A stretch of DNA of 64,000 nucleotides from Chloroflexota bacterium (GTDB taxonomy: Bacteria; Chloroflexota; Anaerolineae; Anaerolineales; Anaerolineaceae), in the NCBI GenBank assembly GCA_021779955.1, contig JAJXZS010000034.1, positions 62,001 to 126,000 on the forward strand, written 5' to 3'. Both the position numbers and the translations under genes were made by a program. This document shows positions 43,414-51,690 of the stretch, piece after piece (position 1 is the first letter of the stretch; each line of letters opens with the position of its first letter). Under the pieces are notes generated by a model. The model made no database searches and was not told the DNA's origin. It worked only from the letters and a program-made list of their open reading frames with translations.

Positions 43414-44118
43414 CTAGCTCAAACCATGAGCCAGGAGAAGGCTTTCATCTGCAAGTATTTCGGCTGTTGGCCCATCCGCCGCGATCGCTCCCTGGTCGAG
43501 CACGACCGTTCTTGGAGTAAGATTTTCTGCCAGGGCCAGGTCGTGCGTTGCGATCAACATCGTTTGGGGTAATTCGCGTAACAACTCGATCAACTCACGT
43601 CGAGCGCGCGGATCCAATCCGGAGGTCGGTTCATCCAGGACTAAAATGCGAGGCTGCATGGATAATACCGTGGCAATTGCGATGCGCTTTTTCTCACCGC
43701 TGCTCAAATGGTACGGATTCCGGCCCGCATAATCACTCATGTGAACGGCAGCCAATGCCTGCTCTACTTTTTCTCTGACTACCTTTTCTCCCAAACCCTG
43801 GTAGATGGGTCCGTAGGCAACGTCTTCATAAACAGTCGGTGAAAAAAGCTGATCATCTGGATTTTGGAAAACCAGTCCCACCTGTCCGCGGATCAGACCA
43901 AGATTTTTCTTCTCTACTTCCATCCCGCCGATCAAGATTTGTCCGCTCCCCTCGAAGATGCCGTTGAGGTGCAAAAGCAGGGTGGATTTTCCGGCCCCAT
44001 TGGCGCCTACCAGGGCGATTTTTTCACCCGGCATGACTTTCAGAGAGATCTCGCTCAACGCAACTTTCCCGTCAGGATAATGGAAAGAGAGATGGTCGAT
44101 TTCGATGATGGGATTCAT
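43414..44118 (-). CDS. cbiO: Cobalt/nickel ECF transporter ATPase CbiO
   Basis: A 234-residue ABC ATPase. Walker A GANGAGKST, ECF-type signature LSSGEKKR, Walker B ILVLDEPTSGLD and the switch in IATHDL. It forms a homodimer driving the ECF importer. GGAGG precedes the ATG, 3 bp after the cbiQ stop. Last gene of the cbiMN-cbiQ-cbiO unit. Confidence 0.93.
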   Translation of the reverse strand: MNPIIEIDHLSFHYPDGKVALSEISLKVMPGEKIALVGANGAGKSTLLLHLNGIFEGSGQILIGGMEVEKKNLGLIRGQVGLVFQNPDDQLFSPTVYEDVAYGPIYQGLGEKVVREKVEQALAAVHMSDYAGRNPYHLSSGEKKRIAIATVLSMQPRILVLDEPTSGLDPRARRELIELLRELPQTMLIATHDLALAENLTPRTVVLDQGAIAADGPTAEILADESLLLAHGLS

Positions 44119-44121
44119 GTC

Positions 44122-44913
44122 TCAACCTCCGCTGAATAGTCCAAGCAGCCAAAGCATCGCCAGAAGGACCACACCCAGGGCGAGGAGTTGTCGATCGCCG
44201 TTCGAAAGAGGCCTGGTATCTGAAGCGGGCAGCTCACCGGTATATCCCCTGGACAACATAGCTGCATACACTCGATCGCTGCGTTCGAGCGAACGCAAGA
44301 ACAGGCTTCCGGCCATCCCGCCGGTCACCCCAGCCCGCCAGGACACGGATCCACCGTGATGGTGAGAGCCAGGCACGGTCGCGCTGCGGCTCGTGCGTGC
44401 TCGCGCCATTCGGGTGACCTCATCAACAATCACGAAGAGATACCGCCACATAAGTCCGACGATTGCGACGAACAATTTGGGGACTCGCAATTGTTGTAAT
44501 GCGGTCAATAAATCCGGAAAGCGGGTCGTCGCTGCAAGCAAAATTGCAACCTGAACCGAAATCCAGGATTTGACCGCAATACTGGCAAAACGCCCCAAGC
44601 CTTCAGGACTGTAGGTCAACTGAACCCCGCGAAAAACGTCCAGCGTGATATGGGGAGGCGGGCCGATGAAGATGAGAGGAACGGCCGCCAAAATGAAGGG
44701 CAATGCCAAAAGGGCACGCTTAAGCACAAATCCCAAGCCCAGGCGGGAGAAGAGCGCAGCTGATAGGATCAGGGTCAGGAACAGGATATAGGCGGGCCAC
44801 GCATTGAAGGGAGTCAGGCTCAAGAAGAGCACAAACGCAAGGGTGAAGATGACCTTCACCCTTGCATCCATTTGATGGATGATGCTGCGGTTTTGCCTGA
44901 ATAGTTCGCGCAC
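44122..44913 (-). CDS. cbiQ: Cobalt/nickel ECF transporter T component CbiQ
   Basis: A 263-residue transmembrane coupling protein. Hydrophobic helices are followed by the two coupling Ala-Arg-Gly-type motifs (MARARTSRS and AAMLSRGYTG) that grip the ATPases. A His-rich insert SHHHGG lies between them. The frame opens at 44985, inside cbiM, but a GTG at 44913, four bases after the cbiM stop and with AGGTAAAAGG before it, fits better. Confidence 0.9.
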   Translation of the reverse strand: MRELFRQNRSIIHQMDARVKVIFTLAFVLFLSLTPFNAWPAYILFLTLILSAALFSRLGLGFVLKRALLALPFILAAVPLIFIGPPPHITLDVFRGVQLTYSPEGLGRFASIAVKSWISVQVAILLAATTRFPDLLTALQQLRVPKLFVAIVGLMWRYLFVIVDEVTRMARARTSRSATVPGSHHHGGSVSWRAGVTGGMAGSLFLRSLERSDRVYAAMLSRGYTGELPASDTRPLSNGDRQLLALGVVLLAMLWLLGLFSGG

Positions 44914-44917
44914 CCTT

Positions 44918-45862
44918 TTACCTCTGAGAGTTCTCTTGCTTTGCGGTTCGTTTCTCGGCGCGGGCGATACCGTAGGCCACGCCAAAAACGATCACGACAC
45001 CCAGGACACCAGCTGCGATTGTGGCCAGCGCAGGATCAGAGATGCCATGCAAGGCATAGTCGGGAATGAGGTTGTAGAGCGCTGCTTTGGCTGACAGAAT
45101 AAATCCATTCTCTTGAGCTACCCATTCCAATCCATCCGGATGGCTCGAAGCCAGCGGCGATAGAACTACCAGCATCAGGGCAATCAGGCTGCCGCCCAAG
45201 AAGACACCCTTGTTGCCGGCCGGCCTGGGTTCTCCAAGCTTAAGCAGATCCTTGCGTGCAGCGAATAAGAAAGCCAGCGCGCCTGCCGTGATCAAGCCTT
45301 CTCCGATGCCGATGAGAGCGTGAATCGCTCCCATCGCAGGAATGGCAAGATTTGCCGGGGACGTGCCGGACAGGGCAAGTTGTAAAGCGCATGACAGCGA
45401 TGCGATGAAGATGGAGCTCCAGGCTGCCGCAAAACCGGCGACGAATACTCCCCAGGATTGCTCTTTGAAGAGCTGAATCAGCAAGGTATAGACCGCGTAA
45501 GCGACGAAGACGCCTACAATGGCCATATTGAAGAGATTCGCCCCCAAAACTAAAATCCCGCCATCCTGGAAAAGCAGTGCCTGAACCGAAACGACTGAGG
45601 TCATTACCAGGACAGCCGGCCAGGGTCCCAACAAGATGACCGCTATGGCTGCGCCCAACAAGTGCCCGGATGTGCCGCCGGTGACGCTAAAGTTGAGCAT
45701 CTGCCCGGCAAAGATTGCAGCCGCGAGAACGCCCATCAATGGCACATCACGCTCACCAAGCTCGCGACTCGTTTTCCGCAGGGCAATTCCGATCACGATT
45801 ACCGAAATGACCCAAAAAACAATCGAAACCAACACCGAGAGGAAACCATCCGGGATATGCAT
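44918..45862 (-). CDS. Cobalt/nickel ECF substrate component, CbiM-CbiN fusion
   Basis: About 314 residues. The first 215 are CbiM: MHIPDGFL, then GGTSGHLLGAAIAVILLGPWPAVLVM with the metal-site His, and IGIGEGLITAGAL. The rest is a CbiN-like part with the PDGLE motif (SSHPDGLEWV) and a second helix, normally a separate small protein. In CbiM/NikM the N-terminal Met and His2 themselves bind the metal, so the ATG at 45862 is favoured; yet the better ribosome site (GGAG) belongs to a TTG at 45892, which would add ten residues. Cobalt versus nickel cannot be told. Confidence 0.92.
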   Translation of the reverse strand: MHIPDGFLSVLVSIVFWVISVIVIGIALRKTSRELGERDVPLMGVLAAAIFAGQMLNFSVTGGTSGHLLGAAIAVILLGPWPAVLVMTSVVSVQALLFQDGGILVLGANLFNMAIVGVFVAYAVYTLLIQLFKEQSWGVFVAGFAAAWSSIFIASLSCALQLALSGTSPANLAIPAMGAIHALIGIGEGLITAGALAFLFAARKDLLKLGEPRPAGNKGVFLGGSLIALMLVVLSPLASSHPDGLEWVAQENGFILSAKAALYNLIPDYALHGISDPALATIAAGVLGVVIVFGVAYGIARAEKRTAKQENSQR

Positions 45863-45947
45863 GGGTAGCGGTGAAAAAATCGGTGATGACAAGGGCGACT
45901 ATCTCCGTTTGATCCATGGTGCTAGAATGGGAATATCTTGCTCGATT

Positions 45948-45991
45948 ATTATATAGCATATAAATGCAAATGCAAAGATTTGCACTATAAT
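45948..45991. promoter_or_regulatory. Divergent promoters and operator between cbiM and its regulator
   Basis: Minus strand: TTGCAT (45970-45975), 16 bp, TATAAT (45948-45953) for cbi. Plus strand: TATAAT (45986-45991) for the regulator gene with no good -35. Between them TGCAAA-GA-TTTGCA (45971-45984) is a 14-bp inverted repeat preceded by another ATGCAA (45964-45969). It covers the cbi -35 and the expected -35 zone of the regulator, and resembles the TTGCAA-type half-sites of nickel-responsive Nur. One Fur-family dimer could switch both genes. Confidence 0.65.
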
Positions 45992-45999
45992 TATACGGA

Positions 46000-46416
46000 A
46001 TGGAAAGAAATATGCGCGCATCTTCTGTCGATCAAATCATTATCGAAACATTATCCCAAGAGCATGCCCACCTGACATCCCATCAAGTGTATGCGGAAAT
46101 CCGCGAGCGACTGCCTGCTGTAAATCAGTCCACTGTCTATCGTGCTTTGGAGCGTTTGGTGAATCTTGGCAAAGTATCCGTTTCCGATATGGGTACCGGA
46201 TCGGCGGTCTACGAGTTGCTGACTGAGGGGATCCACCACCACCTGGTATGCCAAAAATGTGGGCGGGTCGTCACGATTGACCACGAGGAAGTGGAGGAGT
46301 TTTTCGCGGCAATTCATCACAAACATCACTTTGAAATCGTTACCAACCATTTGATCCTTTTCGGAATTTGTGAGAAATGCCAGACGGATGCCGATCCCAA
46401 AATCGGCGCGGGATGA
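46000..46416 (+). CDS. Fur-family regulator, probable Nur-like sensor
   Basis: A 138-residue Fur-family repressor with the winged helix (NQSTVYRALERLVNLGKV), HHHLVCQKCG (His79-81, Cys84/87), a second His group HHKHH (106-110) and the closing CEKC (Cys124/127). Placed back to back with a Co/Ni importer, it is most likely its nickel- or cobalt-responsive repressor. A TATAAT ends nine bases before the first ATG, so that start would be leaderless; the ATG at 46012 with GGAAAG four bases upstream is equally plausible. Confidence 0.88.
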   Translation: MERNMRASSVDQIIIETLSQEHAHLTSHQVYAEIRERLPAVNQSTVYRALERLVNLGKVSVSDMGTGSAVYELLTEGIHHHLVCQKCGRVVTIDHEEVEEFFAAIHHKHHFEIVTNHLILFGICEKCQTDADPKIGAG

Positions 46417-46961: not shown

Positions 46962-48899
46962 CTACACCTGGTAAGGCACTTCAAGGATCACCAAACCGGG
47001 TTTGAAGACCAGGGCTGCGCGCAAGAGCAGCGCTGTCTGGTTATGCAGCAGATTCTCATACCAGTGGGCAGGAATGAACTGCGGCACCACGATGGTCAGC
47101 AGTTCGTTGGGCTGCCGGACTTCGAGCAGCTTCTGAATGTATGCCAGGATCGGCTCGACCAGAAGGCGGTATGGACTTTCGAGGATTACGAGGCGGGTCC
47201 CCCCTCCGTATTGATCCCACTTCTTGCGCACACTGTCGGTTTCTTTCGGATCGATGGATACATGTACGGCTGTGACGTCGGGTCCAAGCGATTGAGCATA
47301 TGTCAACGCTTCGAGCGAGCCGCGGTGTACACCGGCGATCAGAACGATGATGCGGTGGCGGGAGATTCGCGTGTGCGGGATATAGTTTTCGAGCGAGAGT
47401 CTCTTCGCCAATGTCTTGTAGTGATGGTGAATGGCAAAGAAGACTGACACCAACAGGGGGATGAGTACAATGATGATCCACGCGCCATCTTTAAATTTAG
47501 TTGTAGCAAAGACGATCATCACGGTGAGGGTGCTCAGGGAGCCAAAGCCGTTGATGATGATTTTTGTCTTCCAATTCTTGTCGTAAGTGATTGTCGAACC
47601 GGGTTCCACGATCTGTTCACCGGGCTTGAGGTGCCCCGATTTCCACCAGCGCCGCGCCATGCCTGCCTGTGAAAGCGTGAACGAGAGGAACACACCGATG
47701 GCGTACAGGGGGATCAATGCCGTTACGCTTGCCTGAAAGATGATGATCAAAACAGAGGCGATCATGGCAAGGGCGACAATGCCCGTCGAATATACCAGGC
47801 GGCTGCCCTTCATCGTCATCTGATGAGGCAGGAATCCATCACCTGCGTGCAATGCCCCAAGCCGTGGAAAATCGGCGAATGCGGTATTGGCTGCCATGAT
47901 CAGGATGATGGCGGTACCTGCGATGAGCGCCAGGTATAGGATTCCCTGCCCGCCATATACAGTACGCGCAAGCTGGGAGATGACGGTTTCATAGTTCGAA
48001 GGAGTGACCCCAATCTTGCCTGAAAGAAATGAAATTGAGAGGAACAACGTGCCGAGAATGCCGGACATCCAGAGCAAAGTGATCCCTGCGTTGTGGCTGC
48101 GCGGTTCTTTGAAAGCAGTAATACCGTTTGAAATGGCTTCGATACCCGTAAGAGCTGATGTGCCGCTTGAGAAGGCGTGCAGCAGCAGAAACGGAGTAAC
48201 CAAGGCAAGAGTTGAAGGAATCAGGTCGGTAGGCGGATTAACGACTGTGCCGAGCGAACCTGTCAGAAATCTGAACATGCCTACGGCGACGGTGATCGCC
48301 ATGGCGGCCACAAAGAAATACGTGGGAACGGCGAAAGCCTTGCCAGATTCTTTTACGCCCCTGAGATTCATAAGCATGATGAACATCACCATACCGACAG
48401 CGATAATCACCCGGAAAGGATCAAGGAACGGAAACGCCGATGTGATCTGCGCCACGCCCGAGGAGATGGACACGGCAACTGTCAGGATGTAATCGGTCAA
48501 CAATGCTGCACCTGCGGTTTGGGCAGGCAGTTCGCCGAGGTTATCGCGGGCAACGATATAGGCGCCGCCGCCGCCAGGATACGCATGGATCGTTTGCTGG
48601 TAGGAGACAGTGACGATGATCATCAATGCGACGATGGCGAGGGAAATAGGGAAAACGGCAACAAGCGCGCCGGCTCCTGCAGTGATCAGGATGGTCATGA
48701 TCTCTTGGGTCGCGTATGCGGTTGACGAAAGCGCATCTGAGGCGAAGACGGCCAGGCCGATGGTCTTTCCAATCGTCTGTGATGGTGCATCGGCTGTCTG
48801 AAGCGGATTCCCGATCAGCCAACCTCGAAGCCCTTTCTTTACGATGGGATTCAGATTGGGTTCAACGATCGTGGTGCCTGGATAGGTCTCTATCTTCAT
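46962..48899 (-). CDS. kimA: KimA-type potassium importer (APC superfamily)
   Basis: A 645-residue membrane protein with 12 helices and a cytosolic C-terminal domain (about 500-645). The block FASDALSSTAYATQEIM in helix 1 is the hallmark of KimA/YdaO and KUP-like carriers, in which Asp and Tyr residues take part in K+/H+ symport. The C-terminal part (RIIVLIAGVHRGSLEALTYA...) is the Usp-like dimer domain of KimA. Databases often label such proteins amino acid permeases, but neighbours KdpD/KdpE support potassium. In Bacillus KimA is controlled by cyclic di-AMP; no ydaO riboswitch is visible here. Confidence 0.82.
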   Translation of the reverse strand: MKIETYPGTTIVEPNLNPIVKKGLRGWLIGNPLQTADAPSQTIGKTIGLAVFASDALSSTAYATQEIMTILITAGAGALVAVFPISLAIVALMIIVTVSYQQTIHAYPGGGGAYIVARDNLGELPAQTAGAALLTDYILTVAVSISSGVAQITSAFPFLDPFRVIIAVGMVMFIMLMNLRGVKESGKAFAVPTYFFVAAMAITVAVGMFRFLTGSLGTVVNPPTDLIPSTLALVTPFLLLHAFSSGTSALTGIEAISNGITAFKEPRSHNAGITLLWMSGILGTLFLSISFLSGKIGVTPSNYETVISQLARTVYGGQGILYLALIAGTAIILIMAANTAFADFPRLGALHAGDGFLPHQMTMKGSRLVYSTGIVALAMIASVLIIIFQASVTALIPLYAIGVFLSFTLSQAGMARRWWKSGHLKPGEQIVEPGSTITYDKNWKTKIIINGFGSLSTLTVMIVFATTKFKDGAWIIIVLIPLLVSVFFAIHHHYKTLAKRLSLENYIPHTRISRHRIIVLIAGVHRGSLEALTYAQSLGPDVTAVHVSIDPKETDSVRKKWDQYGGGTRLVILESPYRLLVEPILAYIQKLLEVRQPNELLTIVVPQFIPAHWYENLLHNQTALLLRAALVFKPGLVILEVPYQV

Positions 48900-48959: not shown

Positions 48960-49403
48960 TTACAAATCAAAGAGATGCCATTTGGAGGATGCCGGCATGG
49001 ATCGGGACGAAGAATGAGAAAATTCCTGAATGAAGAAGCGATCTGTGTTGCGCAGAGTTGCATAGTCATTTGCACCGGGCAAGCTGTTCAATTCCTTGGG
49101 AGCCACGATGGTGTCTTGCGGCCGGTACAGGCTTTTGATGGTTCTCACCCAATTGGTTTTGCCGACCAACTCGTAGTTGACGGTGGTCCCGCTTCCAGAA
49201 GTCAAGGCTATCATGGTGACCATTTCACGAATGATGGAAGCTTTCGATGGGTGACCCGAGATCGCCACCAGATAGATCACATCGGCTTCTTCACAGCTGG
49301 CAAGACGGGCAACTCTCCTTGCAAGGTCCAGGTCCCCTGCCCATTCTTCGGGAAGGAGAACCAACAACCTCGGTTTCTGGTCGGGTACCATTTTCGAAAT
49401 CAA
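48960..49403 (-). CDS. Stand-alone Usp-like protein
   Basis: A 147-residue protein that starts like a universal-stress-protein domain: KPRLLVLLPEEWAGDLDLARRVARLASCEEADVIYLVAI. The second half (about 60-147) is less typical and ends Ser-rich. It lies 60 bp ahead of kimA and 102 bp after kdpE, so it belongs to the potassium module. AAGGAG stands six bases before a TTG at 49403, taken as start; an ATG at 49391 is the alternative. It may bind a nucleotide and regulate KimA or the kinase, which is inference. Confidence 0.7.
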   Translation of the reverse strand: MISKMVPDQKPRLLVLLPEEWAGDLDLARRVARLASCEEADVIYLVAISGHPSKASIIREMVTMIALTSGSGTTVNYELVGKTNWVRTIKSLYRPQDTIVAPKELNSLPGANDYATLRNTDRFFIQEFSHSSSRSMPASSKWHLFDL

Positions 49404-49404
49404 A

Positions 49405-49433
49405 ACACTCTCCTTGATTGTCAAAGAGAGTGT
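49405..49433 (-). promoter_or_regulatory. SD-masking hairpin before the usp-kimA genes
   Basis: On the minus strand ACACTCTC (49426-49433) pairs perfectly with GAGAGTGT (49405-49412) across a 13-base loop. The ribosome site AAGGAG straddles the loop and the second arm, and the start codon follows one base after the stem. Folding should limit translation of the Usp gene, and perhaps of kimA by coupling. Confidence 0.65.
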
Positions 49434-49473
49434 ATTTCGCTGTAATAAATTCCGAACAAATATTGGAACGAGA

Positions 49474-49502
49474 TTTATAAAGAAAACATAAGGATTTCTA
49501 AA
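49474..49502 (-). promoter_or_regulatory. Internal promoter for usp-kimA
   Basis: On the minus strand TTTAGA (49497-49502), 17 bp, TATAAA (49474-49479), directly after the kdpE stop. It would give a leader of about 65 bases containing the SD-masking hairpin and would let kimA be induced apart from kdpDE. Confidence 0.55.
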
Positions 49503-49505
49503 CGG

Positions 49506-50204
49506 TCAATCCTCGCCTGTCTTGAACCGGTATCCGATCCCCGGTTCGGTCGCCAGGATTTGCGGATCGTCGGGATTGGCCTCCAGTTTTTTGCGCAGTT
49601 GACCGATATACACCCGTAGATATTCCACGTGATTCATATCGCTGTAACCCCACACCTGGGTAAGAATCGCCTGGTGAGTCAGCACACGGTCGGGATGAGC
49701 GGCCAGGTAGGAGAGAAGCTTGAACTCGGTGGCAGTCAGCCGAATTTCCTCCTCACCTTTGGTCACGAGGTGCTTCGCGAGATCGATGCTGATCGTGCCC
49801 GCTTTGATCACCGTCTCCTTGTTCCCGATGGTCTGCTCAGAGTGACGCAGCGCAACCCGGATGCGGGCCAGCAACTCCTCGATACCAAATGGCTTGGTCA
49901 GGTAATCATCTGCGCCCTTGTCGAGGGCAGCCACTTTGTCCTTCTCGTTGTCGCGGACCGAGAGGATGATGATCGGAACGCGAGACCATTCGCGGATCTG
50001 CTCGACGATCTGGATGCCGTCCATGTCGGGGAGGGTAAGGTCGAGGATGATGATGTCGGGAGGCTGAGCGACGGCCTGCGCCATGCCCATTTCACCGGTT
50101 GTGGCCGAGACGATTTGGAAATCATTTGCAGAGAGGATCGTCTTGAGCGCCCTCAAGATCTGCGGTTCATCATCGATGAGCAGGACCATGGGTTTCTTAT
50201 TCAT
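49506..50204 (-). CDS. kdpE: KdpE-like response regulator
   Basis: A 232-residue OmpR/PhoB-family regulator. Receiver domain with the acidic pair Asp11/12, phospho-acceptor Asp55 (IIILDLTLPDMDG) and Lys104; C-terminal winged helix (RLTATEFKLLSYLAAHPDRVLTHQAILTQVWGY). GGAGG supports the ATG at 50204, which overlaps the kdpD end by eight bases. In other bacteria KdpE turns on the KdpFABC pump; no such pump is here, so kimA just downstream is the likely target. Confidence 0.9.
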   Translation of the reverse strand: MNKKPMVLLIDDEPQILRALKTILSANDFQIVSATTGEMGMAQAVAQPPDIIILDLTLPDMDGIQIVEQIREWSRVPIIILSVRDNEKDKVAALDKGADDYLTKPFGIEELLARIRVALRHSEQTIGNKETVIKAGTISIDLAKHLVTKGEEEIRLTATEFKLLSYLAAHPDRVLTHQAILTQVWGYSDMNHVEYLRVYIGQLRKKLEANPDDPQILATEPGIGYRFKTGED

Positions 50205-51690
50205 CGGCCGCCTCCTTTGGAACTGCAGGAAGTGCGCCATCCAGCGTCAGCGGCAGTGTAAAGTTGAAGGCCACCCCTTCTTCCCAATTCTCCGCCCAAA
50301 TCCTCCCCCCATGAGCTTCGATAATGCCTTTGCATATGGAAAGCCCCAGTCCTGTGCCCATCACCTTATCGGCCAGGGTGATCCGGTTGAATTTGTCGAA
50401 GATGCGTTCGAGTTGTTCTTCAGGCACCTTAGGGCTTTGATTGGTCAAGCACACCTGCAGGCATTCATCTTCCACCCGGGCTTTGATCGTGATCGCAGTT
50501 CTTTCAGGCGCGTATTTGACGCTGTTGCTGAGCAGGTTCACAAACACCTGCTCGATCAGGATGTAATCGGTTGGAACCAGCGGCAAATCGGACGGCAATT
50601 CGATCGATAGATGGTGATTTTGCATTTCCTTACGCATCTTCGCCGCCGCGCTGTTGACGATCTCACCAAGCGAATTCCAGTTCCTTTGAGGTTTGAGAGC
50701 CCCCGATTCGATGCGCGACATGTCGAGCAGGTTGCCCACCAACAGATTCAGATGATCTGATTCTTCTTCGATCATGGCGAGCAGTTCTTCGCGGTCCGCA
50801 GTATTCCAGCCGACGGCTCCGCTGCGCAGGCTGGAAACGGATGCCTTAATGGCCGCCAGGGGCGAGCGCAGCTCATGCGAAACGGAATTCAGCAGTGAAG
50901 ATTTAAGCTTATCGCTTTCTTCGAGCACCCTTGCGCGAGCTTCGCCGCGTGCCAGGCGCACGCGCTCCATTGACAGGGCTCCCTGCGCTGTATACGCTTC
51001 AAGCAAGCGGTTCTCTTCTTTGGTGAGGCCATCTTTTCGCCAAATACTGATCTGGCCTTCCTGTCCCCTGGCGGTCTGCAATGGCACAGTAACCAAAGGC
51101 GCTGCGCGCGTCAAAGGCCTGCCGGCATTCATGGCGGAATAAGTATTCAATTTAAGATCATCAGAGGGGAGAACCACGTCAACGCGTTGCGCCATGAAGG
51201 TGTCAAGCGTGTAATCGGCCAATGCCTGGGCAATACTGGGAGTATCCTGCAGGCTGGCAAGTGATGAGATCAGCTCATACATGCGCGTGGCTTCCCACTC
51301 GCGGCTTTGTGATAGATGCAAAGCTTCACGAGCGCGAGCAATCAATTGGCTGATGATCCCCGAGACGATCAGGAAGATGATCAATGTGATCAAATCCTGG
51401 GTTCGGTGTACCTGGAAGGTGCCGTAGGGGGGAATGTAGAAATAATTGACCGTAAGAAAAGCTGCAATGGCTGCCAGAATCCCCGGTGTTAAACCCCACA
51501 AAACAGCAGCCAGCACTATGGGGAGCAAGAAAATCAGCGTGATGATCTGAACCGTCAAATAAGGCTCGAATGGAGTGAGTACGAGCTTGATTAGCGCAAT
51601 GAGGAGAAGTGCTGCCACATGACGGTAAAGAACGAGCCACAATTGTTTCTTGAAGAAATTACGCATCGGCGAAGAGAAGTTGATTCTCAC
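50197..51690 (-). CDS. KdpD-like sensor histidine kinase lacking the N-terminal sensor
   Basis: About 497 residues: four closely spaced helices of the DUF4118 type (ALLLIALIKLVLTPF... GIISQLIARAREAL), a GAF-like domain, the HisKA box SVSHELRSPLAAIKASVSSLRSG, and the ATPase domain with N-box (NLLSNSVKYA), IFDKFNR and GTGLGLSICKGI. Classical KdpD has in addition about 370 residues at the front (KdpD Walker domain plus Usp domain); both are missing. I take the GTG at 51690, overlapping the epimerase stop as GTGA; ATG 51666 lacks a ribosome site. Confidence 0.87.
   Translation of the reverse strand: MRINFSSPMRNFFKKQLWLVLYRHVAALLLIALIKLVLTPFEPYLTVQIITLIFLLPIVLAAVLWGLTPGILAAIAAFLTVNYFYIPPYGTFQVHRTQDLITLIIFLIVSGIISQLIARAREALHLSQSREWEATRMYELISSLASLQDTPSIAQALADYTLDTFMAQRVDVVLPSDDLKLNTYSAMNAGRPLTRAAPLVTVPLQTARGQEGQISIWRKDGLTKEENRLLEAYTAQGALSMERVRLARGEARARVLEESDKLKSSLLNSVSHELRSPLAAIKASVSSLRSGAVGWNTADREELLAMIEEESDHLNLLVGNLLDMSRIESGALKPQRNWNSLGEIVNSAAAKMRKEMQNHHLSIELPSDLPLVPTDYILIEQVFVNLLSNSVKYAPERTAITIKARVEDECLQVCLTNQSPKVPEEQLERIFDKFNRITLADKVMGTGLGLSICKGIIEAHGGRIWAENWEEGVAFNFTLPLTLDGALPAVPKEAADE

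Follow-up and report, generated by a model that had tools for sequence, protein, structure and literature searches.

Apparent rewiring of the KdpD/KdpE switch from the Kdp pump to the potassium importer KimA in a Chloroflexota bacterium and many relatives

The KdpD/KdpE pair is the textbook two-component system for potassium (K+) and is usually taken as the regulator of the Kdp pump. In a 64,000-nucleotide stretch of a Chloroflexota bacterium of the family Anaerolineaceae (contig JAJXZS010000034.1, positions 62,001 to 126,000; hereafter the window), genes for a short KdpD and for KdpE were followed by a Usp-like open reading frame (ORF) and by kimA, which encodes a K+ importer. We consider it quite probable, from the sequence evidence set out below, that KdpD/KdpE controls KimA here in place of KdpFABC, as a K+-limitation switch. 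In this bacterium and many relatives the pair has apparently been moved from control of the Kdp pump to control of KimA. A sequence-only reading of this DNA had proposed that the signalling pair drives KimA while the free Usp protein perhaps replaces the missing Usp domain of the kinase. The first part was supported by linkage of the genes in three orders and by a candidate operator before both linked and separate KimA genes, and the second part was not upheld. The features of the locus are listed below.

50197-51663, minus strand: kdpD, short sensor kinase, 488 residues from ATG 51663 (ORF open from GTG 51717)
49506-50204, minus strand: kdpE, OmpR-type response regulator (start set by comparison with a relative; ORF open from 50240)
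49477-49492, minus strand: predicted KdpE-type operator pair 1, CTTAT-N6-TTTAT, 11-bp repeat
49445-49460, minus strand: predicted KdpE-type operator pair 2, TTTGT-N6-TTTAT, 11-bp repeat
49429-49434, minus strand: -10-like box TACACT, at the same distance after pair 2 as in relatives
49405-49433, minus strand: terminator-like hairpin, 13-bp stem and T tail, 5' arm overlapping the -10 box
48960-49403, minus strand: usp-like ORF, 147 residues from TTG 49403 (open from 49424), C-terminally truncated
46962-48899, minus strand: kimA, KUP-family K+ importer, 645 residues with a C-terminal cytosolic domain

Genes of the locus and potassium transport in the genome

The ORF list confirmed, all on the minus strand, the short KdpD, KdpE, the Usp-like ORF and KimA. 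The Usp-like gene lay right after kdpE and directly before kimA as had been claimed, but KimA and most of usp lay outside 49404-51690, the span that the reading had described. The usp start was probably TTG 49403 and not 49424, as a Shine-Dalgarno-like AAGGAG precedes the TTG.

The Pfam scan of the window kinase gave DUF4118, HisKA and HATPase_c above cut-off and no other domain. Neither PF02702 nor the Usp domain (PF00582) was found in the chain, which bore out the earlier description of a kinase without both N-terminal cytosolic domains of the classical protein. The H-, N- and G-box motifs were all present and the nearest solved structure was 6lgq ('Histidine kinase KdpD'). The kinase scored under the NCBIfam KdpD equivalog cut-off (271.5 vs 1123 bits) with KdpD still the best family. 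The same three-domain architecture was found in 23/23 scanned members, of which one had a Pfam GAF match; a stretch of GAF length was present after the sensor. In the full-length relative L041, Pfam found the Usp domain in the KdpD chain. The window KdpE showed a receiver and a winged helix, its best structure matches were the KdpE entries 6lgq, 4kny and 4kfc, and the E. coli DNA-contact residues R193, R200 and T215 were conserved. It also scored under its NCBIfam equivalog cut-off (249.2 vs 325 bits), with KdpE still the best family.

The window KimA matched the solved KimA 6s3k with an E-value of 3.3e-134 over residues 24-644, covering the transporter and the C-terminal domain. The K+-site residues of B. 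subtilis KimA, which we take to be D36, Y43, D117, T121, S125, T230 and E233, were all kept in the window protein as D55, Y62, D136, T140, S144, T251 and E254. KimA is predicted to be the K+ importer of this locus, with K+/H+ symport and inhibition by cyclic di-AMP (c-di-AMP) as its predicted properties.

The genome of this bacterium (2.83 Mb, 56 contigs, scored 100% complete) was searched for other K+ importers. KdpA gave no match in a search that was positive in 5/14 control genomes, and the Kdp pump was not found genome-wide, in agreement with the sequence-only reading, which had called it absent from the window. PF02702 gave no match at E ≤ 0.001. TrkH/KtrB was absent from all 21 genomes searched, this one included, and the same search was positive in 11/14 control genomes. 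No Kup passed the cut-off in this genome, where the sole Kup-type match, below the cut-off, was a second KimA. Kup as an alternative importer was thus rejected: most of the other listed matches also fell on KimA genes, and a few (e.g. G006:C19 and G040:C297) corresponded to no KimA place among those listed. The second KimA (L047, G000:C11:18123-20057) was 61% identical, with no kdpDE within the 14-kb stretch read and no operator upstream.

A diadenylate cyclase gene was encoded in the genome. A c-di-AMP riboswitch before KimA was rejected, since none was found in this genome or in 25 loci with KimA; across 61 genomes such riboswitches occurred in only two (G017:C232, G017:C208 and G027:C1). 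B. subtilis KimA, according to PMC11018627, stands under the ydaO c-di-AMP riboswitch. The window protein is likewise a KimA-type transporter with a C-terminal domain (6s3k), but its transcription apparently runs through the two-component system.

Linkage and candidate KdpE operator in relatives

The survey sample comprised 151 genomes, the present one included. KimA was found in 105 of them, KdpA in 20, PF02702 above cut-off in 29 and DUF4118 at E ≤ 1e-8 in 66. There were 92 DUF4118 places, 35 in full-length KdpD and 57 short, about nine of the short ones being fragments, at contig ends or not fetched. KimA lay within 6 kb of at least 32 of the 57 short and at least seven of the 35 full-length kinases, and KdpA within 9 kb of 16 full-length kinases and one short fragment. 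One of the 32 KimA-linked short kinases (G073:C32, L038/L159) was a HisKA_3 kinase that shares DUF4118 only. Among 55 loci, some of which are the same contig from two collections, kdpDE preceded kimA in 39, kimA preceded kdpDE in nine and the two were divergent in seven. The neighbourhood, whose conservation the sequence-only reading had proposed to survey, thus recurs in relatives, in so many genomes as to exceed chance. Neither of the two outcomes that this reading had named as refuting was seen, since kdpFABC was not found in this genome and relatives keep the neighbourhood. The idea that the kinase came to be paired with KimA by losing its N-terminal domains was rejected, as full-length KdpD pairs with KimA in at least seven places.

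The kinase tree was built on 88 rows, reduced from 101 by dropping short kinases under 430 residues, full-length ones under 800 and identical rows. A group of 48 short kinases including that of the window was recovered with support 100/98. None of its members was labelled KdpA-linked, and the KdpA-labelled kinases were full-length and stood elsewhere in the tree. Other short KimA-adjacent kinases were scattered outside this group (L008, L009, L013/L195, L127 and L182), and the short/full label required eight changes on the tree.

Nine further short kdpDE pairs adjoined a permease just 24-26% identical to KimA, and a tenth (L055) one with 42% identity. The distant permeases kept all seven K+-site positions save for a single T-to-S substitution, found in L050, and are possibly a second type of K+ importer. 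In L049, L050, L052 and L053 (with a usp-like gene) and in L056, L057 and L059 (without), the short kdpDE was followed by a gene of 330-390 residues and then by the KimA-like permease; two of these intermediate genes were scanned and had no Pfam family over cut-off, and operator pair 1 followed kdpE in 6/7 of these loci. KimA also has another kinase partner, some 1100 residues long, which stood directly upstream of KimA or of a KimA pair in 13/80 loci (L128, L138, L139, L152, L156, L161, L165, L167, L172, L174, L176, L183 and L192), with dCache, HAMP, GAF, PAS and HisKA domains by Pfam in L139, the one scanned.

Between kdpE and the gene that follows it lay TTTAT-N6-TTTAT (pair 1), then TTTGT-N6-TTTAT (pair 2), then a TAnnnT box. 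In promoter sets de-duplicated by identical stretch, with regions under 120 bases excluded, pair 1 at ≥9/10 letters occurred in 31/32 promoters of the kdpDE-before-kimA order and was perfect in 26/32. First-order shuffles gave 1.75 (largest 4) and 0.02 (largest 1) respectively, and lengthening the regions by 25 bases brought pair 1 to 32/32. Among spacings of 6 to 21, perfect repeats numbered 26 at spacing 11 and at most three at any other. Pair 2 and the -10 box stood at a fixed distance in the promoters of relatives. The four-half-site pattern matched the window once, at 49492-49445, with 1/20 mismatch and 0.00 matches expected. In the locus L026 (G014:C34) a short kdpDE was followed by two tandem kimA genes, and each of these genes had a perfect pair 1 to itself.

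More independent tests of the operator come from the KimA paralogs, from KimA genes located away from kdpDE, from the regions upstream of kdpD and from the E. coli site in the literature. At ≥9/10 letters, pair 1 was found upstream of kdpD in 1/29 control regions, before 1/20 KimA paralogs from 18 genomes that have a short kdpDE and before unlinked KimA genes in 7/70 (shuffles 1.52, largest 3). Five of these seven account for the 5/5 KimA genes with pair 1 in the genomes whose short kdpDE stands apart (G025, G082, G098, G108 and G087), and pair 1 was present in 0/10 of the other unlinked KimA genes tested from G-labelled genomes, at least four of these ten being from the same genus, in genomes without a DUF4118 match. 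Among the five, the kinase of G098 (L062) is split over two ORFs, and in G087 some 16 kb separate KimA from kdpDE on a shared contig. In short kdpDE loci that lack KimA, pair 1 also followed kdpE in 9/15. The KdpE site measured in E. coli (PMC3264566) reads TTTATA-N5-TTTACA and has the same spacing as the window repeats, with half-sites 11 bp apart.

A second repeat type, CTTGA-N6-CTTGA, was found before kdpFABC in 6/11 cases, in 5/8 promoters of KimA before full-length KdpD, in 4/7 of KimA before short kdpDE, in 1/5 divergent promoters, in 0/32 window-type promoters and in 3/70 of unlinked KimA. By this distribution, KimA and kdpFABC have a common repeat type in one group, and in the other KimA has a type of its own. 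When KdpE proteins were sorted by repeat type, the TTTAT group (n=47, a few of them encoded next to KdpA or full-length KdpD) had E190 in 41, Y195 in 35 and Q198 in 42 recognition helices, and the CTTGA group (n=12) had H190 in 12, N195 in 11 and N198 in 11. R193 and R200 were invariant in both groups and T215 was found in 44/47 and 12/12, respectively. E. coli KdpE has H190 and Y195. A KimA paralog in G090:C324 (L213) had a perfect CTTGA-N6-CTTGA, and its genome also has full-length KdpD and KdpA. Control of this paralog by KdpDE in trans is possible, a reading weakened by the region upstream of kdpFABC in G090, which scored only 7/10 for the CTTGA repeat.

Alternative explanations and the Usp-like protein

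Several observations weigh against control of KimA by KdpE through this operator. The half-site was first noticed by eye in these same promoters, which makes the 31/32 partly circular. At ≥9/10 letters, spacing 7 was reached in 26/32 and spacing 21 in 20/32 of these T-rich regions. Pair 1 was less regular in the other gene orders (3/7 where kimA precedes short kdpDE, 3/5 where divergent) and was found beside full-length KdpD in 1/8. In the window itself its first half-site has one mismatch, and pair 1 alone was not significant (4 matches, 1.59 expected). Furthermore, the signal perceived by DUF4118 kinases could be one other than K+, and the TrkH search covered 21 genomes only.

Addition of the Usp-like protein to the proposed control of KimA as a working third part, either as stand-in for the Usp domain of the kinase or as regulator of KimA, is rather doubtful. 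In its favour, a usp-like gene stood beside kdpDE in 30/31 annotated loci and in 9/10 further short stretches (some stretches being the same contig twice), behind the operator. In relatives the protein has about 200-250 residues, with a Usp-like core and, at the C-terminus, a membrane hairpin of two long hydrophobic helices. The predicted model of the relative L121, with a predicted local distance difference test score (pLDDT) of 83, had Usps in its first seven Foldseek rows and by this measure has the Usp fold. Comparison of its core (VIA) gave Z 11.1 for Usps, 10.0 for the KimA C-terminal domain (8b71) and 9.3 for the KdpD Usp domain (7ji4), but unrelated proteins of the same broad fold scored nearly equal (argininosuccinate synthase 9.5, FAD synthetase 9.2). 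Profile-profile comparison showed no similarity of the family to the KdpD Usp domain or the KimA C-terminal domain, and a transplanted domain of either kind was rejected, the likeness being one of fold. The window ORF matched no family in Pfam or NCBIfam and, by sequence, no PDB entry; Pfam Usp matched neither the window copy nor three relatives, and no Usp ATP motif was seen by eye in the family. Compared with the universal stress proteins and KdpD Usp domain (PMC8214093), the family shares the Usp-like core by predicted structure and differs in lacking a Pfam Usp match, in the two-helix tail of relatives and in the truncated window copy.

That copy matched the family over its residues 5-114 (model positions 8-117 of 213), and its predicted model was confident only over about residues 10-110, with pLDDT <50 for the last 36 residues. 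Reading the frame past the stop added about 1 bit only with the family profile built here, although a genome search let the alignment run through one TAA as far as model position 161. The copy is clearly truncated, but no clear remnant of the hairpin was seen past the stop. On the best reading the window copy is shortened and perhaps decaying, and is therefore unlikely to replace the kinase domain here. The family was found in 23/151 genomes (this one included; some matches partial), in 0/15 other genomes of the genus, of which 9/15 have kdpDE-kimA without usp, and in at least 10/400 genomes sampled from the phylum, each of them a member of the same order. The absence of profile similarity, the two-helix tail, the lack of a match in the 15 other genomes of the genus and the truncation all speak against the earlier proposal of a free Usp taking over from the kinase's own domain.

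It is improbable that the kinase pair is a mere neighbour that regulates other genes, with KimA constitutive or controlled by c-di-AMP. The diadenylate cyclase gene and the second KimA without operator are in keeping with such an arrangement, but it leaves the linkage in three orders and the operator before linked and separate KimA genes unexplained, and the riboswitch searches in this genome and in 25 KimA loci were negative.

Terminator-like hairpins were found in 17/32 regions (shuffles 1.6, largest 3). In 11 the hairpin stood just before the operator with its T tail running into pair 1, in five over or after the -10 box, the type to which the window hairpin (49433-49405) belongs, and in one further upstream. 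The overlap in 11/32 regions, together with the many spacings that reach 9/10 letters, would suit TTTAT repeats that are terminator tails or an AT-rich promoter feature and not a regulator site, but this is very unlikely given that perfect repeats were frequent at spacing 11 only, that the second pair and -10 box kept a fixed distance, that none of the five separate KimA promoters with pair 1 had a hairpin and that the other KdpE group has a different repeat at the same spacing.

Elsewhere in the window (43414-46416), transporter genes taken by eye for cbiO, cbiQ and cbiM stood on the minus strand with a divergent Fur-family regulator (Pfam FUR). These genes perhaps form a nickel or cobalt importer with its regulator.

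Proposed mechanism and meaning

From the genes present, the domain loss, the lack of another importer of the kinds searched, the linkage and the operator with its distribution, we infer K+ sensing, KdpE binding, activation, termination and c-di-AMP control in the following sequence. Low K+ would bring the DUF4118 membrane kinase into its kinase state, in which it would phosphorylate KdpE. Between kdpE and usp, KdpE would then bind the two tandem pairs of 11-bp repeats and recruit RNA polymerase to a -10 box without a clear -35, so that usp-kimA is transcribed. The promoter hairpin would stop read-through from kdpDE and not transcripts starting inside the hairpin, which would make importer expression dependent on KdpE. 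Fast shut-off may come from c-di-AMP acting on KimA, by analogy with Bacillus, the cyclase being encoded.

The N-terminal domain of KdpD phosphorylates KdpB according to PMC11018627, and the lack of KdpB would explain why this serine-kinase domain is absent from the window kinase. In full-length KdpD both Walker motifs were intact in 14/14 KdpA-linked, 4/8 KimA-linked and 6/13 proteins linked to neither (10/21 for all those not KdpA-linked), although for some of the last class a Kdp operon may lie on a different contig. Such decay would be expected of a domain that has no use once KdpB is missing.

The system resembles E. coli KdpDE-kdpFABC in its KdpE with conserved DNA-contact residues, its 11-bp half-site distance and its DUF4118 sensor with kinase core. 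It differs in having no KdpFABC, no serine-kinase or Usp domains in the kinase, kimA as the probable target and a doubled operator. Separate histidine kinase chains in Chloroflexota have already been noted, and the split KdpD of Acidobacteriota and Chloroflexota, in the account of PMC11018627, likewise has a histidine kinase chain with sensor domains and without the N-terminal domain. In that case the serine-kinase chain is a separate polypeptide, whereas the present genome has no PF02702 and the neighbour is KimA. No paper recognised as dealing with KdpDE control of KimA, generally or in Chloroflexota, was found in searches of the open-access literature. The predicted KdpE-type operator between kdpE and usp-kimA is newly described here, and neither it nor the pairing with KimA was met in those searches; the short Chloroflexota kinases were already in print.

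More tentatively, Anaerolineales may hold a general KdpE-controlled K+-importer cassette, in which a short KdpD/KdpE clade with its own DNA dialect (TTTAT; usually E190/Y195/Q198) drives KUP-type importers, either KimA or the distant KimA-like permease that often has a partner of 330-390 residues. A membrane-anchored Usp-like protein would couple a nucleotide signal to the importer or the kinase, and on several occasions KdpDE would have changed the importer that it serves, the serine kinase directed at KdpB being lost or decaying.

If KimA does stand under KdpDE in a genome with no other importer of the kinds searched, sensing by KdpD would be separable from the function of the pump. This would also account for the serine-kinase domain being dropped, or decaying, where KdpB is lacking. 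Finally, KdpE would have two recognition dialects with matching changes in the recognition helix, which are open to testing.

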